From NCBI RefSeq assembly GCF_002252565.1, contig NZ_NPML01000013.1, forward strand, positions 124,001 through 188,000: a stretch of DNA of 64,000 nt, in the 5' to 3' direction. The notes under the pieces were generated by a model. That model did not search any database and was not told the DNA's origin. It saw nothing but the letters and a program-made list of their open reading frames with translations. This DNA comes from Petroclostridium xylanilyticum. Its GTDB lineage: Bacteria; Bacillota; Clostridia; SK-Y3. This document shows, in pieces, positions 3,074-51,431 of this stretch (its first letter is position 1; every line of letters begins with the position of its first letter). Both the position numbers and the translations under genes were made by a program.

Positions 3074-4849
3074 CTAATACTTATACCTCTCACGTAACCG
3101 ATGATAAAATTCATCAATCTTCTTCTTTACTTCTTCAAACTTCTCAAATTCCTCATTCCCAACGGTATATTTTATTTTTATAATCTCTTCAAATATTCCT
3201 GTATTTCTTAAGACCGACATAGGGATATTCTGCGCTATAAGCTCCTTTGCTTTGCTGTACAGGTATAATATTGCCTCCATCATTTTGAACTGCTTTGTGA
3301 CAGGCACATAAGTATCGCTGGCATGATACGCATTTTGCTGAAGAAAACCCAGCCGGATTACTCTTGAAATGTCCAGAATAAGTTTTTGTTCATCCGGCAA
3401 AATGTCTCCCCCTATCAACTTGACAATTTCCATTAGCTTGCTTTCTTCCTGCAGTAATCTCATTATTTCAGTACGAAGCTCAAAAAATTTACCATCTACA
3501 TTTTTTTCATACCAATCTTTCAAAAGATCGATATACTCACTATAACTGGTAAGCCAGTGTATGGCAGGATAGTGCCTTGAATAGGCAAGCTGCCGGTCCA
3601 GCGCCCAAAAACACCTTATAAACCGCTTGGTATTTTGTGTGACCGGTTCTGAAAAGTCTCCTCCCTGTGGAGAAACAGCACCTATAATTGTTACGGAGCC
3701 TTCTGTCCCATTTAAATTTTGTACATAACCTGCTCTTTCGTAAAACTCTGACAAACGGGATGGAAGGTAAGCCGGAAATCCCTCTTCTGCAGGCATTTCT
3801 TCCAAACGCCCGGAAATTTCTCTAAGTGCTTCCGCCCACCGGGAAGTAGAGTCTGCCATAATTGCAACATGATATCCCATATCCCTATAGTATTCCGCCA
3901 GCGTAATACCTGTATAGATTGAAGCCTCTCTTGCGGCAACAGGCATATTGGATGTATTAGCTATCAAAACAGTTCTATCCATTAGAGGACGTCCAGATTT
4001 CGGGTCAACCAGCTTTGGAAAATCTTCCAATACTTCTGTCATTTCATTTCCCCGTTCACCGCATCCTATATACACGACGATATCGGCATCAGACCATTTT
4101 GCCAACTGGTGCTGCGTCATGGTTTTACCGGTACCAAACCCTCCCGGAATAGCTGCCGTGCCTCCCTTGGCTATGGGAAAAAGGGTATCAATGACCCTTT
4201 GTCCCGTAACAAGCGGCCTGTCAATTCCTATTCTTTTAAGATATGCCCGTGGTGTCCGTATAGGCCATTCCTGGATAAGCGTTAGTTCTCTGATTGCACC
4301 CGAATCTTCCCGTATCTTTACAACCGGCTGATGGATGGAATAGCTGCCATCCGTTACGGTTTCAATTATTTTGCCCTTTATTGTTGGCGGCACCATTATT
4401 CTATGCAGTATAAGAGGAGTTTCCTGGACTTCTGCGATGATACTTCCTCCACTAATCGCGTCTCCTGCTTTTACAGTGATATGTGTATCCCATTTTTTTC
4501 GAGGGTCCAGTGCTTCCATTTCCAAGCCTCTGGAAATAAATGCCCCGGATTTTTTTTCTATGTAATGTAGAGGCCTTTCTATACCATCAAATATATTCCC
4601 GATAATTCCCGGACCCAATTGAACCGATAAGGGTTTGCCAGTAGATATGACCGGTTCTCCCGGGAATAAACCGGTAGTAACCTCATATACCTGGATAATT
4701 GTCATATCATCATGTATTGCAATAACTTCACCAATTAATTTTTCTTTTCCTACCATAACCATTTCAAGCATGCGGAAATCTTTACTGCCCTTTACCTTTA
4801 CAACAGGCCCATTAATGCCATATATGGTTCCTTTAGCTTCTGCCTCCAT
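3074..4849 (-). CDS. ntpA: V-type ATP synthase catalytic subunit A
   Basis: Subunit A is the catalytic ATPase subunit of the V/A-type rotary ATPase. The 591-residue protein carries the Walker A motif GGFGTGKT, the GERGNEMTEVL block, and SRWAEALREISGRLEEMPAEEG. It also has the long non-homologous insertion that distinguishes A from F-type beta subunits. I place the start at the ATG at 4849, preceded by GGTGAT at good spacing. An upstream in-frame TTG at 4879 has no comparable ribosome site and would overlap subunit E. It lies in the ATPase operon between E and B. Confidence 0.97.
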   Translation of the reverse strand: MEAEAKGTIYGINGPVVKVKGSKDFRMLEMVMVGKEKLIGEVIAIHDDMTIIQVYEVTTGLFPGEPVISTGKPLSVQLGPGIIGNIFDGIERPLHYIEKKSGAFISRGLEMEALDPRKKWDTHITVKAGDAISGGSIIAEVQETPLILHRIMVPPTIKGKIIETVTDGSYSIHQPVVKIREDSGAIRELTLIQEWPIRTPRAYLKRIGIDRPLVTGQRVIDTLFPIAKGGTAAIPGGFGTGKTMTQHQLAKWSDADIVVYIGCGERGNEMTEVLEDFPKLVDPKSGRPLMDRTVLIANTSNMPVAAREASIYTGITLAEYYRDMGYHVAIMADSTSRWAEALREISGRLEEMPAEEGFPAYLPSRLSEFYERAGYVQNLNGTEGSVTIIGAVSPQGGDFSEPVTQNTKRFIRCFWALDRQLAYSRHYPAIHWLTSYSEYIDLLKDWYEKNVDGKFFELRTEIMRLLQEESKLMEIVKLIGGDILPDEQKLILDISRVIRLGFLQQNAYHASDTYVPVTKQFKMMEAILYLYSKAKELIAQNIPMSVLRNTGIFEEIIKIKYTVGNEEFEKFEEVKKKIDEFYHRLRERYKY

Positions 4850-5478: not shown

Positions 5479-5787
5479 TCAAATCTTCAATCCTATCGCT
5501 TCCCGGACATACCGAGTGATGGAATCAGGCGTCCGCCCTGTTCCATGACGGTCTGGTATCTCAACGATCAACGGCGTATGGTAGTTCAATTTTATGTCTT
5601 TGATATACTCTGGAAAAAGCTTAACCAACTTTTCGGTAATCAAAATAATTCCTATTTCTTTATTATGCACGACATCATCCAAAACCTGTTTGAGTTCATG
5701 TCCTTCGTGAACCACAACTCCTTCAATTCCTGCCAACCTCATGCCGGTTTTCGTGTCAACATTATCACTAATTAAAAATACTTGCAT
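5479..5787 (-). CDS. V-type ATP synthase subunit F
   Basis: Subunit F is a small central-stalk component that binds subunit D and modulates ATP hydrolysis. The 102-residue protein fits the family in length and pattern: a Rossmann-like fold with FLISDNVDTKTGMRLAGIEG, then EIGIILITEKLV, then PLIVEIPDRHG. The ATG at 5787 follows AAAGGTGA by 5 nt, which is preferred over the GTG at 5796. It is encoded between K and E, which is not the most common order. Confidence 0.94.
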   Translation of the reverse strand: MQVFLISDNVDTKTGMRLAGIEGVVVHEGHELKQVLDDVVHNKEIGIILITEKLVKLFPEYIKDIKLNYHTPLIVEIPDRHGTGRTPDSITRYVREAIGLKI

Positions 5788-10325: not shown

Positions 10326-11585
10326 TTATGGTTTATTTTTAGAACCTGGATGATTTTGTTGCGAATTACTATTGCCACTGCTGCCAGGTTTCGTATCCTT
10401 ATCGGCTTTATCTCCATTATTTGAATTCTGCGGCGGTCTATCTTTCTGCTTTCCCTGATCATCATTTTTCTTGTTCTCATTTTTGTTATCCTCATTTTTT
10501 TCTTTAGCCTTATCCTCATCTCCATCTTCCTGCTTACCTTTATCTATATCTTTATAAATGTCTTCCTGTATTTTACTTTCTTCCCCAACTTCAGAGGCAT
10601 TATTCATATCCCCATTAATATTTTTTTGTATGTCAGCATTTACATGCCCAGATGACACGTCTGGTCTTTTAGACGTGTCATCTTTCTGCTCTGATTTTTT
10701 TTCAATTTGTTTCTTTACCTCTGGCTTTTGAATCTTTTTATCTTGAAAACTTTTTTGCTCCTTGCTGCCACTCCCGTTGTTTTTTTTAGTATTTTCTTCC
10801 TTACCTTTATCCAAATTTTTATCTTTGTCTTTATCTATATCTTTATCTACATCTTTACTTTTTTCTTTTTCTTTCTTTATATTCTCTATTATATCCTTTA
10901 CCGATTTATCCTTCACTTCATCTATATTGGCAGCAGGTGAAACCTTTTGAAGCTGTTCCAGTAATAGAAGTTTACCAACAGAAATGTGCTCTTTTTTAGC
11001 TTGGACACGTTTTTGAATAGTAACACCTTCAACAGTTACATTAGCATTGATGTTGCTTTGTTTCAGCCCTGCCGCAGCATATTCCCGTACATAGCGGCCT
11101 ATCTCCTGTGCCGCTTGAGGTTTTGGAGCGGATACAGTTATAAATATCTCATTATTATCATTATCCTTAAGATAGTTTGCCTCATGAGCTCCATTAATCA
11201 ATTCCGAAATTGCATCATCAACTTTTTTATGCATAAAATGATAGTTATGGTTAATAATCTTTTTACCATCTTCATTTAAAGGCTGCACGTCCAGTACTCT
11301 TTCATAACGATTTAATATTATTTCAACGCTTGGATTGATATCCATGCTCACATAACTATATGGAGAATAATAGCTGTATAACCCCATGCCAATAACCAGT
11401 ATGAAAACAGCCGCAACAGCCGCCATCCTTTGTATCATGGACGTATATCTAATGGTGGGCATAGCTTGTAAATCTATTTCCTGGCCAATTCTATAACCTT
11501 CCTTATACTTTAGTTTCTTGAAATTGCCCTTCCGGTCTACTACCACCATCTCCTTACCTTCTATCTCAACAATCACACCTGTCAT
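10326..11585 (-). CDS. rsgI: Anti-sigma-I factor, RsgI family
   Basis: RsgI-type proteins are membrane anti-sigma factors that hold SigI until an outside signal is sensed. The N-terminus (about 1-50, MTGVIVEIEGKEMVVVDRKG) is the RsgI_N sigma-binding domain. One membrane helix follows (about 52-74), then an extracellular domain with YVSMDINPSVEIILNRYERV (about 78-215). The last 200 residues are low-complexity Lys/Asp/Glu/Asn, with KDxDKDxDKD-type repeats. Unlike cellulolytic clostridial RsgI proteins, no carbohydrate-binding or catalytic domain is visible. It starts 4 bases after sigI ends, preceded by GGAGGTG. Confidence 0.92.
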   Translation of the reverse strand: MTGVIVEIEGKEMVVVDRKGNFKKLKYKEGYRIGQEIDLQAMPTIRYTSMIQRMAAVAAVFILVIGMGLYSYYSPYSYVSMDINPSVEIILNRYERVLDVQPLNEDGKKIINHNYHFMHKKVDDAISELINGAHEANYLKDNDNNEIFITVSAPKPQAAQEIGRYVREYAAAGLKQSNINANVTVEGVTIQKRVQAKKEHISVGKLLLLEQLQKVSPAANIDEVKDKSVKDIIENIKKEKEKSKDVDKDIDKDKDKNLDKGKEENTKKNNGSGSKEQKSFQDKKIQKPEVKKQIEKKSEQKDDTSKRPDVSSGHVNADIQKNINGDMNNASEVGEESKIQEDIYKDIDKGKQEDGDEDKAKEKNEDNKNENKKNDDQGKQKDRPPQNSNNGDKADKDTKPGSSGNSNSQQNHPGSKNKP

Positions 11586-11589
11586 AAAA

Positions 11590-12294
11590 TCACCTCCAAT
11601 TCACAAAGTCTCTGATGAACTCATACTCGCCTAACATAATCAGGACGCCGGCTACTATGTAATTCCGCCCCCGTTCTATCTTTTTTCTATTTATCCCCAT
11701 CTGCTCACATATCTTTGCAATGGGTAAATATCTTTTGGTCGTTATCACTTCTACAACGCTTGCGTCACTTATAATATATTTTATAACATCCAGGTAAAGC
11801 CTTCTGGTCCCCTCCTGCTTTGGAGATGCCTGTGCTACATCAAAGAAATTAATACCCCAGTGTTTCAATTCCTGTTTAAGCTCCTCCAATTCTGCTCTCC
11901 TTGCTCTTTCTAACTCAAGCTGACTGTATTCCTGTATTGATTGTTTTAGGCTAAAATCATATTCTTCATCAGGATCATCCTTCCCGTAGGAACCTTCTAT
12001 AGAAATTTCATGATTGAATTTTTTCTGTGCCCTGTAATAATCAATCAACCTTCTTCTTATTACCTGACTGGCAAAGGTTAAAAAGTTACCTTTCTTCTGG
12101 TCATAGCTCTTAATTGCTTCATGAAAAGCCAATAACCCTATACTTAATTCATCATCTCTTCCATATTCGACAAATTTACCTGTAGATTTTTGCACACAGG
12201 ATGCAATAAATGGTTTATATTCTTCAATAAATGTATTGAGTTGATCGGGATCGTTTTTTATCGTTATCACTCTTAAGGCAATCGCTTTATCCAT
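11590..12294 (-). CDS. sigI: RNA polymerase sigma-I factor
   Basis: SigI is an alternative sigma factor of the sigma-70 group, used for heat, wall or polysaccharide responses in Firmicutes. The 234-residue protein has region 2 with YGRDDELSIGLLAFHEAIKSYD and GNFLTFASQVIRRRLIDYYR. Its SigI-specific C-terminus contains VVEVITTKRYLPIAKICEQMG, an HTH-like segment. The rsgI gene follows with a 4-base gap, the standard two-gene arrangement. The start is an ATG preceded by AAAGGGGGG. Confidence 0.95.
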   Translation of the reverse strand: MDKAIALRVITIKNDPDQLNTFIEEYKPFIASCVQKSTGKFVEYGRDDELSIGLLAFHEAIKSYDQKKGNFLTFASQVIRRRLIDYYRAQKKFNHEISIEGSYGKDDPDEEYDFSLKQSIQEYSQLELERARRAELEELKQELKHWGINFFDVAQASPKQEGTRRLYLDVIKYIISDASVVEVITTKRYLPIAKICEQMGINRKKIERGRNYIVAGVLIMLGEYEFIRDFVNWR

Positions 12295-13171: not shown

Positions 13172-14515
13172 TTAAAAAATGTTAGCAGCAGGCGCTGTTG
13201 AGGTTTCTGCATAAGCAGATATTCCGTGTTCTCCGATATCGAGACCATTATGTTCTTCTTCTTCAGTCACCCTTATACCTGTTGTTGCTTTTAGTGCTCC
13301 AAATACAACCAGTCCCATAATTCCTGCAAAAGCAAGGGCTGCTGCAACGCCTAGAACTTGCACCCCTAGCAGCGCAGCTCCTCCACCGTATAATAACCCG
13401 CCTTCTTTAGCAAACAACCCAACCATGATTGTACCAAAGCTTCCACAAACACCGTGAACGGATATTGCACCCACTGGATCATCAATTTTTGCGATCCTAT
13501 CAAAAAACTCTACTGCAAATATCATTAATATCCCTGCTGCACCGCCGATGATTAAAGCACCATTTGCGGTTACAGCTGCTGCTCCTGCAGTGATAGCGAC
13601 CAGCCCTGCCAGACAGCCATTGAGTGTTAAGCTGACATCCGGCTTTCCATATCTAATCCAGCTAAACAGCATGCTTGTTATGGTAGCCGCTGCTCCTGCC
13701 AGCATGGTTGTTACTGCGATTGAAGCAATGGCAGGATTTGTACCCGCCAGAGTGCTACCCGGGTTAAATCCGAACCATCCAAACCATAATAGAAGAACGC
13801 CTAATGCTCCAAGCGGTATACTGTGCCCTGGAATTGCATGGACCTTTCCATCGGGAGAATATTTTCCTACTCTGGCTCCAACCATCCACGCACCTATTAA
13901 TGCCGACATACCTCCCACAGCATGCACTACGGTTGACCCTGCAAAATCTATAAAACCTAATTTTTGAAGCCATCCGCCACCCCAGATCCAATGACCTATG
14001 ATTGGATAGGTTACGGCACAGATAAAAATACAGAACAGTAAATATGCATTAAACTTTGTACGTTCAGCCATCGCTCCCGAAACAATAGTGGCACATGTTG
14101 CTGCGAATACTGCCTGGAAGAACCAAAAAGCATCCAAAGGAATTCCAAAATCAAATAACTCCCGCTGTGTAAGTGCAAAACCCTTTGAACCGATAAAACC
14201 TGCAATATCAGGACCAAACATTAGCGCAAAACCTATCAAATAATAAACTACAACACCAATACAAACAGTCATAAAGTTTTTCATAATTATATTCACTGTA
14301 TTTTTTGATTGTGTAAATCCTGCTTCAACACACGTGAAGCCTGCATGCATAATAAACACCAGAAAAGCCGCTACAAGTGTCCATACAGTATTTATGGCAA
14401 CAGCGTTGCTCTCCGGGGTAGGTCCATCAGCAGCATAAACTGCAAAGGGAACTAAAATAATCATAAGACTTAAAATAAACACTAATAGTTTTCTTTTCAT
14501 CATTGTTCTTAACAT
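13172..14515 (-). CDS. amt: Ammonium transporter (Amt/AmtB family)
   Basis: Amt proteins conduct ammonium into the cell under nitrogen limitation. The 447-residue protein has a cleavable-looking signal (about residues 1-28) and 11 membrane helices. The twin-histidine pore lies in STVVHAVGGMSALIGAW and ISVHGVCGSFGTI. The ammonium-permease signature is also present (DFAGSTVVHAVGG). A PII gene lies upstream on the same strand, as in most bacteria. The 5' leader carries a structured terminator region, and an inserted 280-bp element separates the two genes. GGAGG precedes the ATG by about 8 bases. Confidence 0.97.
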   Translation of the reverse strand: MLRTMMKRKLLVFILSLMIILVPFAVYAADGPTPESNAVAINTVWTLVAAFLVFIMHAGFTCVEAGFTQSKNTVNIIMKNFMTVCIGVVVYYLIGFALMFGPDIAGFIGSKGFALTQRELFDFGIPLDAFWFFQAVFAATCATIVSGAMAERTKFNAYLLFCIFICAVTYPIIGHWIWGGGWLQKLGFIDFAGSTVVHAVGGMSALIGAWMVGARVGKYSPDGKVHAIPGHSIPLGALGVLLLWFGWFGFNPGSTLAGTNPAIASIAVTTMLAGAAATITSMLFSWIRYGKPDVSLTLNGCLAGLVAITAGAAAVTANGALIIGGAAGILMIFAVEFFDRIAKIDDPVGAISVHGVCGSFGTIMVGLFAKEGGLLYGGGAALLGVQVLGVAAALAFAGIMGLVVFGALKATTGIRVTEEEEHNGLDIGEHGISAYAETSTAPAANIF

Positions 14516-14576
14516 CTTTGCCGCCTCCTTAAAATTTTTACTCCTTAAATTTTTTATATTTTAAAATTGACAAATA

Positions 14577-14656
14577 AAAAAGACGCCATCCATTAAAGAG
14601 ATCATTCTCTTCAACGAAGCGTCTTCACTTCAGTATAAATATTACATCATCGCAAT
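14577..14656 (-). promoter_or_regulatory. ANTAR-like tandem-hairpin leader with terminator upstream of amt
   Basis: On the minus strand the leader first forms a 5-bp hairpin closing a 6-nt loop GATGAT (14641-14656). A second hairpin closes a 6-nt loop AATGAT (14596-14611), enclosed by a GACGC/GCGTC stem (14582-14586 and 14619-14623) that runs into a T-tract. Two hexaloop hairpins with G at loop position 4 before a terminator are the hallmark of ANTAR-protein antitermination targets. A at loop position 1 is met only by the second hairpin. The regulator itself is not in this window. Confidence 0.5.
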
Positions 14657-14671
14657 AATTAACTTATCTTT

Positions 14672-14700
14672 ATTATAGACTAAAAACAAAAAATTTGCAA
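14672..14700 (-). promoter_or_regulatory. Probable amt promoter (gene-proximal copy)
   Basis: TTGCAA and TATAAT are spaced by 17 bases on the minus strand. Initiation would fall just before the tandem-hairpin leader. The same promoter is repeated at 15077-15105 by the 125-bp duplication that flanks the inserted element. Confidence 0.6.
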
Positions 14701-14796
14701 GAAATTTTTTATAATTTCATAATGCATTTTCATTTCGTTCCCATGTCCTTATTCTCACTACCGTTTCAACAGGATAGACAAAGATTTTTCCATCCC
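14672..14796. repeat. 125-bp direct repeat, left copy (flank of inserted element)
   Basis: This stretch is identical to 15077-15201. It begins at the TATAAT box of the amt promoter and ends with 80 bases copied from the 3' end of glnK (14717-14796). The repeat most simply arose as a target duplication when the 280-bp element inserted. Confidence 0.93.
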
Positions 14797-15076
14797 GGGT
14801 CTTTGACAGTTGCAACTTTTCAAACAGTGCTCGAAGCCTTGAAAATAGCACATTTTTGTGTCAAATTTGATTTTCTAAAAATGCGTACTTTCTAGTGATT
14901 TTATTATTTTAATCTTAATTTTCAAATCATATCTGCCGATTTATTAAATGACAGCAAATGCAGCATTAGCAAGGATTTTAAAAAAGTACGCAAATTTTTT
15001 ATTTAATCAAAAGCCTGAAACCCTTTAATATCAAGCCTTATCAGGCTTTTTGTATTCGCCAAGTGTCAAACTCGGG
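14797..15076. mobile_element. 280-bp non-coding inserted element, copy 1
   Basis: The 280-bp sequence begins GGGTCTTTGACAGTTG and ends CAAGTGTCAAACTCGGG; the two ends share an 11-bp imperfect inverted repeat (TTTGACAgTTG against CAAgTGTCAAA). It lies between 125-bp direct repeats. A second copy of exactly the same length, with about ten mismatches, lies at 51152-51431. No convincing open reading frame is present. An AAAAGCCTGA/TCAGGCTTTT hairpin with a T-run (15009-15051) and a GCGTACTT/AAGTACGC long-range pair suggest a structured RNA. No transposase is in the window. Confidence 0.85.
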
Positions 15077-15634
<558 letters not shown>

Positions 15635-51151: not shown

Positions 51152-51431
51152 GGGTCTTTGACAGTTGCAACTTTTCAAACAGTGCTCAAAGCCTTGAAAA
51201 TAGCACATTTTTGTGTCAAATTTGATTTTCTAAAAGTGCGTATTTTCTAGTGATTTTATTATTTTAATCTTAATTTTCAAATCATATCTGCCGATTTGTT
51301 AAATGACAGCAAATGCAGCATTAGCAAGAATTTTAAAAAACTACGCAAATTTTTTATTTAATCAAAAGCCTGAAACCCTTTAATATCAAGCCTTATCAGG
51401 CTTTTTGTATTCGTCAAGTGTCAAATATGGG
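51152..51431. mobile_element. 280-bp non-coding inserted element, copy 2
   Basis: This copy has the same length and orientation as that at 14797-15076, with about ten substitutions. The AAAAGCCTGA/TCAGGCTTTT hairpin lies at 51364-51406. The pair GCGTACTT/AAGTACGC seen in copy 1 is weakened here by substitutions on both sides. The terminal GGG is followed directly by ATTATA, the same as copy 1. Confidence 0.85.

Follow-up and report, generated by a model that had tools for sequence, protein, structure and literature searches.

The window, a stretch of 64,000 nucleotides of Petroclostridium xylanilyticum DNA, carries an ammonium transporter gene (amt) downstream of a PII-type regulator gene (Table 1). 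The amt leader reads, 5' to 3', TTGCAA, a 17-nt spacer, TATAAT and then AAAGATAAGTTAATTATTGC. The TTGCA...TATAAT of this promoter was also present in the amt leaders of relatives when the sequences were compared. The 5' end of the amt transcript is expected near 14665, just ahead of the first hairpin (P1), which agrees with the promoter and start site predicted by the first-pass annotation.

Table 1. Features of the amt locus (positions in the window; loops in square brackets)
Feature	Position	Strand	Evidence or remark
PII-type regulator gene (glnB/glnK), upstream of amt	15122-15460	minus	ORF; Pfam PF00543
amt promoter, -35 box TTGCAA	14695-14700	minus	sequence; 17-nt spacer to -10
amt promoter, -10 box TATAAT	14672-14677	minus	sequence
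P1 hairpin, UAUUGC[GAUGAU]GUAAUA	14640-14657	minus	sequence, MFE fold, dual-hexaloop scan; G4 in 4/4 family amt leaders
P1-P2 linker, 8 nt	14632-14639	minus	sequence
P2 hairpin (antiterminator), GAAGU[GAAGAC]GCUUC	14616-14631	minus	dual-hexaloop scan, fold, relatives
Intrinsic terminator hairpin, 48 nt, ~-25 kcal/mol	14579-14626	minus	RNAfold
Hairpin 2 of the first-pass annotation, GAAGAG-AAUGAU-CUCUUU	14595-14612	minus	tip of terminator, not an ANTAR site
Terminator U-run, U6	14576-14581	minus	sequence
amt, ammonium transporter, presumed controlled gene	13172-14515	minus	ORF; Pfam Ammonium_transp PF00909

An element of 280 bp without ORFs (14797-15076), with the ends GGGTCTTTGACAGTTG and CAAGTGTCAAACTCGGG, is located upstream of amt and is flanked by identical direct repeats of 125 bp (14672-14796 and 15077-15201). 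Each repeat contains a copy of the PII gene end and of the -35 and -10 boxes of amt. On contig 76 of the related genome G001, the site is empty and a single 125-bp copy is present. The genome contains ten near-full copies of the element, including another one in the window (51152-51425). The element resembles a MITE whose target duplication is unusually long; duplications of this kind are a feature of IS1634-type elements. Elsewhere in the window, a sigma-I-like gene (11590-12294) lies beside an RsgI-like anti-sigma gene (10326-11585), both judged from their translations only.

Hairpins and terminator of the amt leader

The P1 hexaloop (14646-14651) is carried by a 6-bp stem and the P2 hexaloop (14621-14626) by a 5-bp stem with a U-G closing pair. 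Both loops have G at positions 1 and 4. P2 and the terminator share positions 14616-14626. The loop and 3' arm of P2 thus double as the 5' arm of the terminator, so these two structures are mutually exclusive, as in the targets of EutV and NasR. The nascent RNA that precedes the terminator 3' arm was folded as P1 and P2 (-12.2 kcal/mol), with P2 drawn by RNAfold with a G1-C6 pair, and the full-length leader RNA as P1 and a single long terminator hairpin. G1 could pair with C6 or U6 and so shrink the hexaloops of the window to four bases; this and the U-G closing pair of P2 speak against the ANTAR reading. The terminator stretch had a z-score of -5.4, and none of 200 shuffled sequences was as stable.

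The leader was found in a lax dual-hexaloop scan, which required two hexaloop hairpins, G4 in both loops and a terminator overlapping the second hairpin. By chance, this lax pattern occurred 30 times and the strict A1/G4 dual pattern 3 times per 38.8 Mb of Markov sequence. The real window contained three lax hits in 128 kb (both strands), including P1 and P2 of the amt leader; with this rate as a harsher yardstick, the probability for a given 150-nt leader is a few in a thousand. Further lax hits were located at 4236 and 50154. The strict A1/G4 dual criteria were too narrow: they missed the amt leader of the window as well as the glnA leaders. The Rfam scan returned two tRNAs only, and no family matched the amt leader. 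RF03055, which had been guessed to be the ANTAR RNA family, is the unrelated RAGATH-30.

The amt leader has most of the features that define ANTAR dual-hexaloop sites: two adjacent hexaloop hairpins with stems of at least 3 bp each, G4 in both loops, a linker within about 5-12 nt, and overlap of P2 with the terminator. In ANTAR leaders, the second hairpin must compete with the terminator (PMC3369931). The same plan, with dual hexaloops 5-12 nt apart, G4, a P2 that extends into the 5' arm of the intrinsic terminator, and a nitrogen-related gene, is found in the eut leaders of Enterococcus faecalis, the targets of EutV (PMC3369931, PMC8934654). In contrast to these leaders, position 1 of both amt loops is G and not A, and P2 is closed by U-G. 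An A-to-U change at loop position 1 lowered EutV function (PMC3369931), and with G1 in both window loops this counts against the ANTAR reading.

Leaders of amt, glnB and glnA in the family

The amt leader of the window was compared with the orthologous leaders of three other family members (G003, G001 contig 135 and G004). The P1/P2 loops were GAUGAU/GAAGAC in the window, AGGGUU/AAAGAC in G003, AGCGAG/GAUGAC in G001 and AGUGGU/GAGGAC in G004. G4 was present in all eight loops, while the neighbouring loop bases varied; A1 occurred in three of the four P1 loops and in one of the four P2 loops. A search for the motif in orthologous leaders had been proposed as a check, and they do carry it; in G003, both loops are of the canonical A1/G4 type. 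The terminator tip differed among these leaders: AUGA in the window, AAUGAA in G001, and GGAA or AUUU in G003 and G004. G001 contig 76, with a leader identical to that of the window, was left out of the count. This contig is probably a binning stray, because over 3 kb it shares 99.5-99.8% identity with the window, compared to 73% for the other amt copy of G001.

The glnB leader in the genome of the window carries the same element, and the glnB leaders of the family share its plan. Their P1 hairpins are GCUC[AUCGUU]GAGC, GCUC[GUUGAU]GAGC, GUUC[AAUGUU]GGAC and GUUC[AAUGCU]GAAC, and the stems differ by compensatory changes (GCUC/GAGC, GUUC/GAAC, GUUC/GGAC). P2 is GGC[UAAGGC]GCC, over a GGCGCC terminator. 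In a nine-row alignment, nine of ten pairs were changed on both sides. The covariation of this alignment was 0.82, compared to 0.31 after shuffling (0/500) and at most 0.32 when slid, a value biased towards structure because the rows, orthologues mixed with paralogous leaders, were picked for their hairpins. Covariance model R1 recovered the amt and glnB leaders of the family, which are its training set and thus not independent hits. In G002, which had not been used for training, the best hit of the model directly precedes amt (E = 1.89).

P1 was not found for the glnA leaders; the five glnA leaders of the family have one loop only, further from the promoter. In L002, the glnA leader (3460-3530) contains a hexaloop-terminator attenuator with AACGAC, and the glnB leader (5660-5750) an attenuator with AUCGUU and UAAGGC. 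The presence of both putative attenuators in this genome suggests a small NitR regulon.

The ANTAR protein and lone hexaloops upstream of amt

The first-pass annotation had called for a search for an ANTAR-domain gene, and the genome indeed has a single one (PF03861, 2.1e-23). This gene encodes a receiver-ANTAR protein of 191 aa; it immediately follows glnA and is in turn followed by a second PII-amt pair. ANTAR genes were present in all six family genomes. The closest solved relatives of the protein are 1s8n, a putative antiterminator, and EutV (6wsh/6ww6). In its crystal structure, EutV contacts G4 as the only specific base and does not contact A1 at all (PMC8934654). The EutV residues that contact G4 (R142, K149, E160 and Y164) and the plug residue M172 are all present in the ANTAR protein, and the backbone-contacting R168, N173, R175 and R177 are replaced by Q, D, G and P, respectively. 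Unlike in EutV, the phospho-accepting D54 is replaced by Asn, as it is in four family relatives (L088, L089, L091 and L093). The receiver thus lacks the Asp of phosphorylation-activated response regulators of the EutV type, and phosphorylation is an unlikely switch. A signal via PII or glutamine synthetase would be our guess. A clostridial antiterminator, NitR, has been linked to ammonia assimilation (PMC4676874). It is likewise an ANTAR protein associated with genes for glutamine synthetase and nitrogen assimilation; the protein described here is NitR-like and a putative orthologue, whereas the amt target RNA is described in the present study.

At 80 amt loci from public genomes, the 450 nt upstream of the gene were surveyed for terminators. 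In Firmicutes, 21 of 40 such terminators overlapped a hexaloop hairpin, with A1 and G4 in 20 of the 21 loops. Overlap with an A1/G4 hexaloop was far less common among the other terminators of the same loci (13/232, compared to 20/40; Fisher p = 3e-11). In other phyla, it was observed for 0/9 terminators upstream of amt and for 4/175 others. Several of the 13 non-amt loops appear to precede GOGAT-type, GSIII, pyrG or purF genes, as identified from translations, and these genes likewise belong to glutamine or nitrogen metabolism. An ANTAR gene was found in 14 of 15 motif-bearing genomes, compared to 16 of 28 other tested genomes (p = 0.017); in the remaining motif-bearing genome, L072, the search gave no ANTAR gene.

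Most of the Firmicute hexaloop amt leaders lack P1, and a spacing of 12-17 nt between the -10 box and their lone loop is common. In L053 and L058, hairpins resembling P1 overlie promoter elements and are probably due to chance. In five loci (L008, L018, L031, L053 and L069), two tandem hexaloop-terminator units precede amt, as if they were attenuators in series. Most of the clostridial ANTAR proteins (L116-L131) from genomes with lone-hexaloop amt leaders have His in place of EutV Tyr164, the residue that stacks on G4, unlike those of the family of the window, where Tyr is retained. A search for the promoter-plus-hexaloop pattern was made in 148 clostridial genomes, and 30 loci were read; the pattern was loose, and most of the 30 had no stem. 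Both a stem and a terminator were recognised in three of them, which precede asnA-, amt- and GSIII-like genes; a fourth locus, with a stem and a tail resembling a terminator, likewise precedes a GSIII-like gene.

On balance, we lean towards a general picture in which clostridial ANTAR attenuators commonly use one A1/G4 hexaloop that overlaps the terminator (before amt, glnA, GSIII, GOGAT-like, asnA, pyrG and purF genes). This loop would often be the first structure that the transcript forms, ~12-17 nt downstream of the -10 box. The dual form of the window, with its less strict position 1, would then lie at one extreme of a continuum, and the regulon would be governed by an ANTAR protein that acts independently of phosphorylation.

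Proposed attenuation of amt and its significance

The amt leader is, at a probability of roughly 85%, a transcription attenuator under the single, NitR-like ANTAR protein encoded after glnA. Sequence and comparison show that the nascent amt RNA can form P1 and then P2, both with G4 in their hexaloops, that P2 and the terminator exclude each other, that these structures are conserved, and that the genome encodes a protein with the G4-contacting residues. We infer the binding of NitR, the direction of the nitrogen response and its signal as follows. When nitrogen is scarce, NitR would grip the hexaloops via the flipped-out G4 and hold P2, so that RNA polymerase reads into amt. When nitrogen is plentiful, NitR would be inactive, the terminator would form and amt would be off. 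NitR would be switched without phosphorylation.

ANTAR antitermination, as proposed by the first-pass annotation, is therefore retained as the best reading of the leader, with a different second hairpin and with no A1 in either true loop. The annotation had paired P1 with the AAUGAU hairpin. Its GAUGAU hairpin is real, being P1 in the MFE fold, and it was said to fit at position 4 only (G1, G4). The AAUGAU loop was said to fit fully; it does have A1 and G4, and G001 has AAUGAA at the same place. However, this hairpin is only the apex of the terminator, where RNAfold pairs the first and last loop bases, and binding within the terminator would leave termination unhindered. It would also require a linker of ~27 nt, compared to 5-12 nt in the E. 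faecalis eut leaders, where 14 nt already impairs function (PMC3369931), and the tip is replaced in G003 and G004. The AAUGAU hairpin was rejected as P2 in favour of the GAAGAC hairpin, and we regard the pairing of P1 with it as scarcely credible.

The strong hairpin between the PII gene and amt could instead be a plain terminator that ends the PII transcripts, with small hairpins formed by chance and amt using a later promoter. We consider this improbable, because a good promoter sits between the PII gene and the hairpins, because P1, P2 and both G4 are retained in four family leaders, and because Firmicute amt terminators overlap A1/G4 hexaloops so much more often than others. Mutually exclusive hairpins alone leave the trans-acting factor unnamed, and a protein-free, ligand-sensing (riboswitch-like) attenuator or another RNA-binding protein could act on the same P2/terminator switch; the result for L072 would fit such an arrangement. 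We give it little credence, as the leader matched no Rfam family and an ANTAR regulator gene directly follows glnA. In addition, the loop G4 is kept although the stem sequences vary freely, in agreement with recognition of the loops by ANTAR.

The attenuator proposed for amt is a variation on ANTAR targets already predicted and is not new in type. Ramesh et al. (2012) predicted such targets before PII, ammonium transporter and glutamine/glutamate synthase genes, e.g., in Desulfotomaculum (PMC3369931), which is the same gene set and predicted mechanism. Their screen modelled dual loops with A1 and G4. The amt leader departs from this model at A1 in both loops and agrees with every other sequence criterion tested, which makes it a variant of the known type. 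Many of the clostridial leaders described here depart from the dual model further, with one loop only. This lone-hexaloop form is the less expected part of our findings, and no description of it was found in the open-access subset of the literature. It bears on the published two-contact model of antitermination: Walshe et al. proposed that two hexaloops must be contacted in turn and noted that single-hexaloop sites merit bioinformatic analysis (PMC8934654).

The leaders also separate the two loop bases regarded as defining, as G4 is constant in the compared family leaders and A1 is not. This agrees with the crystal structure, where G4 alone is contacted. For nitrogen control in this clostridial lineage, the amt leader provides a concrete RNA target together with a likely regulator.
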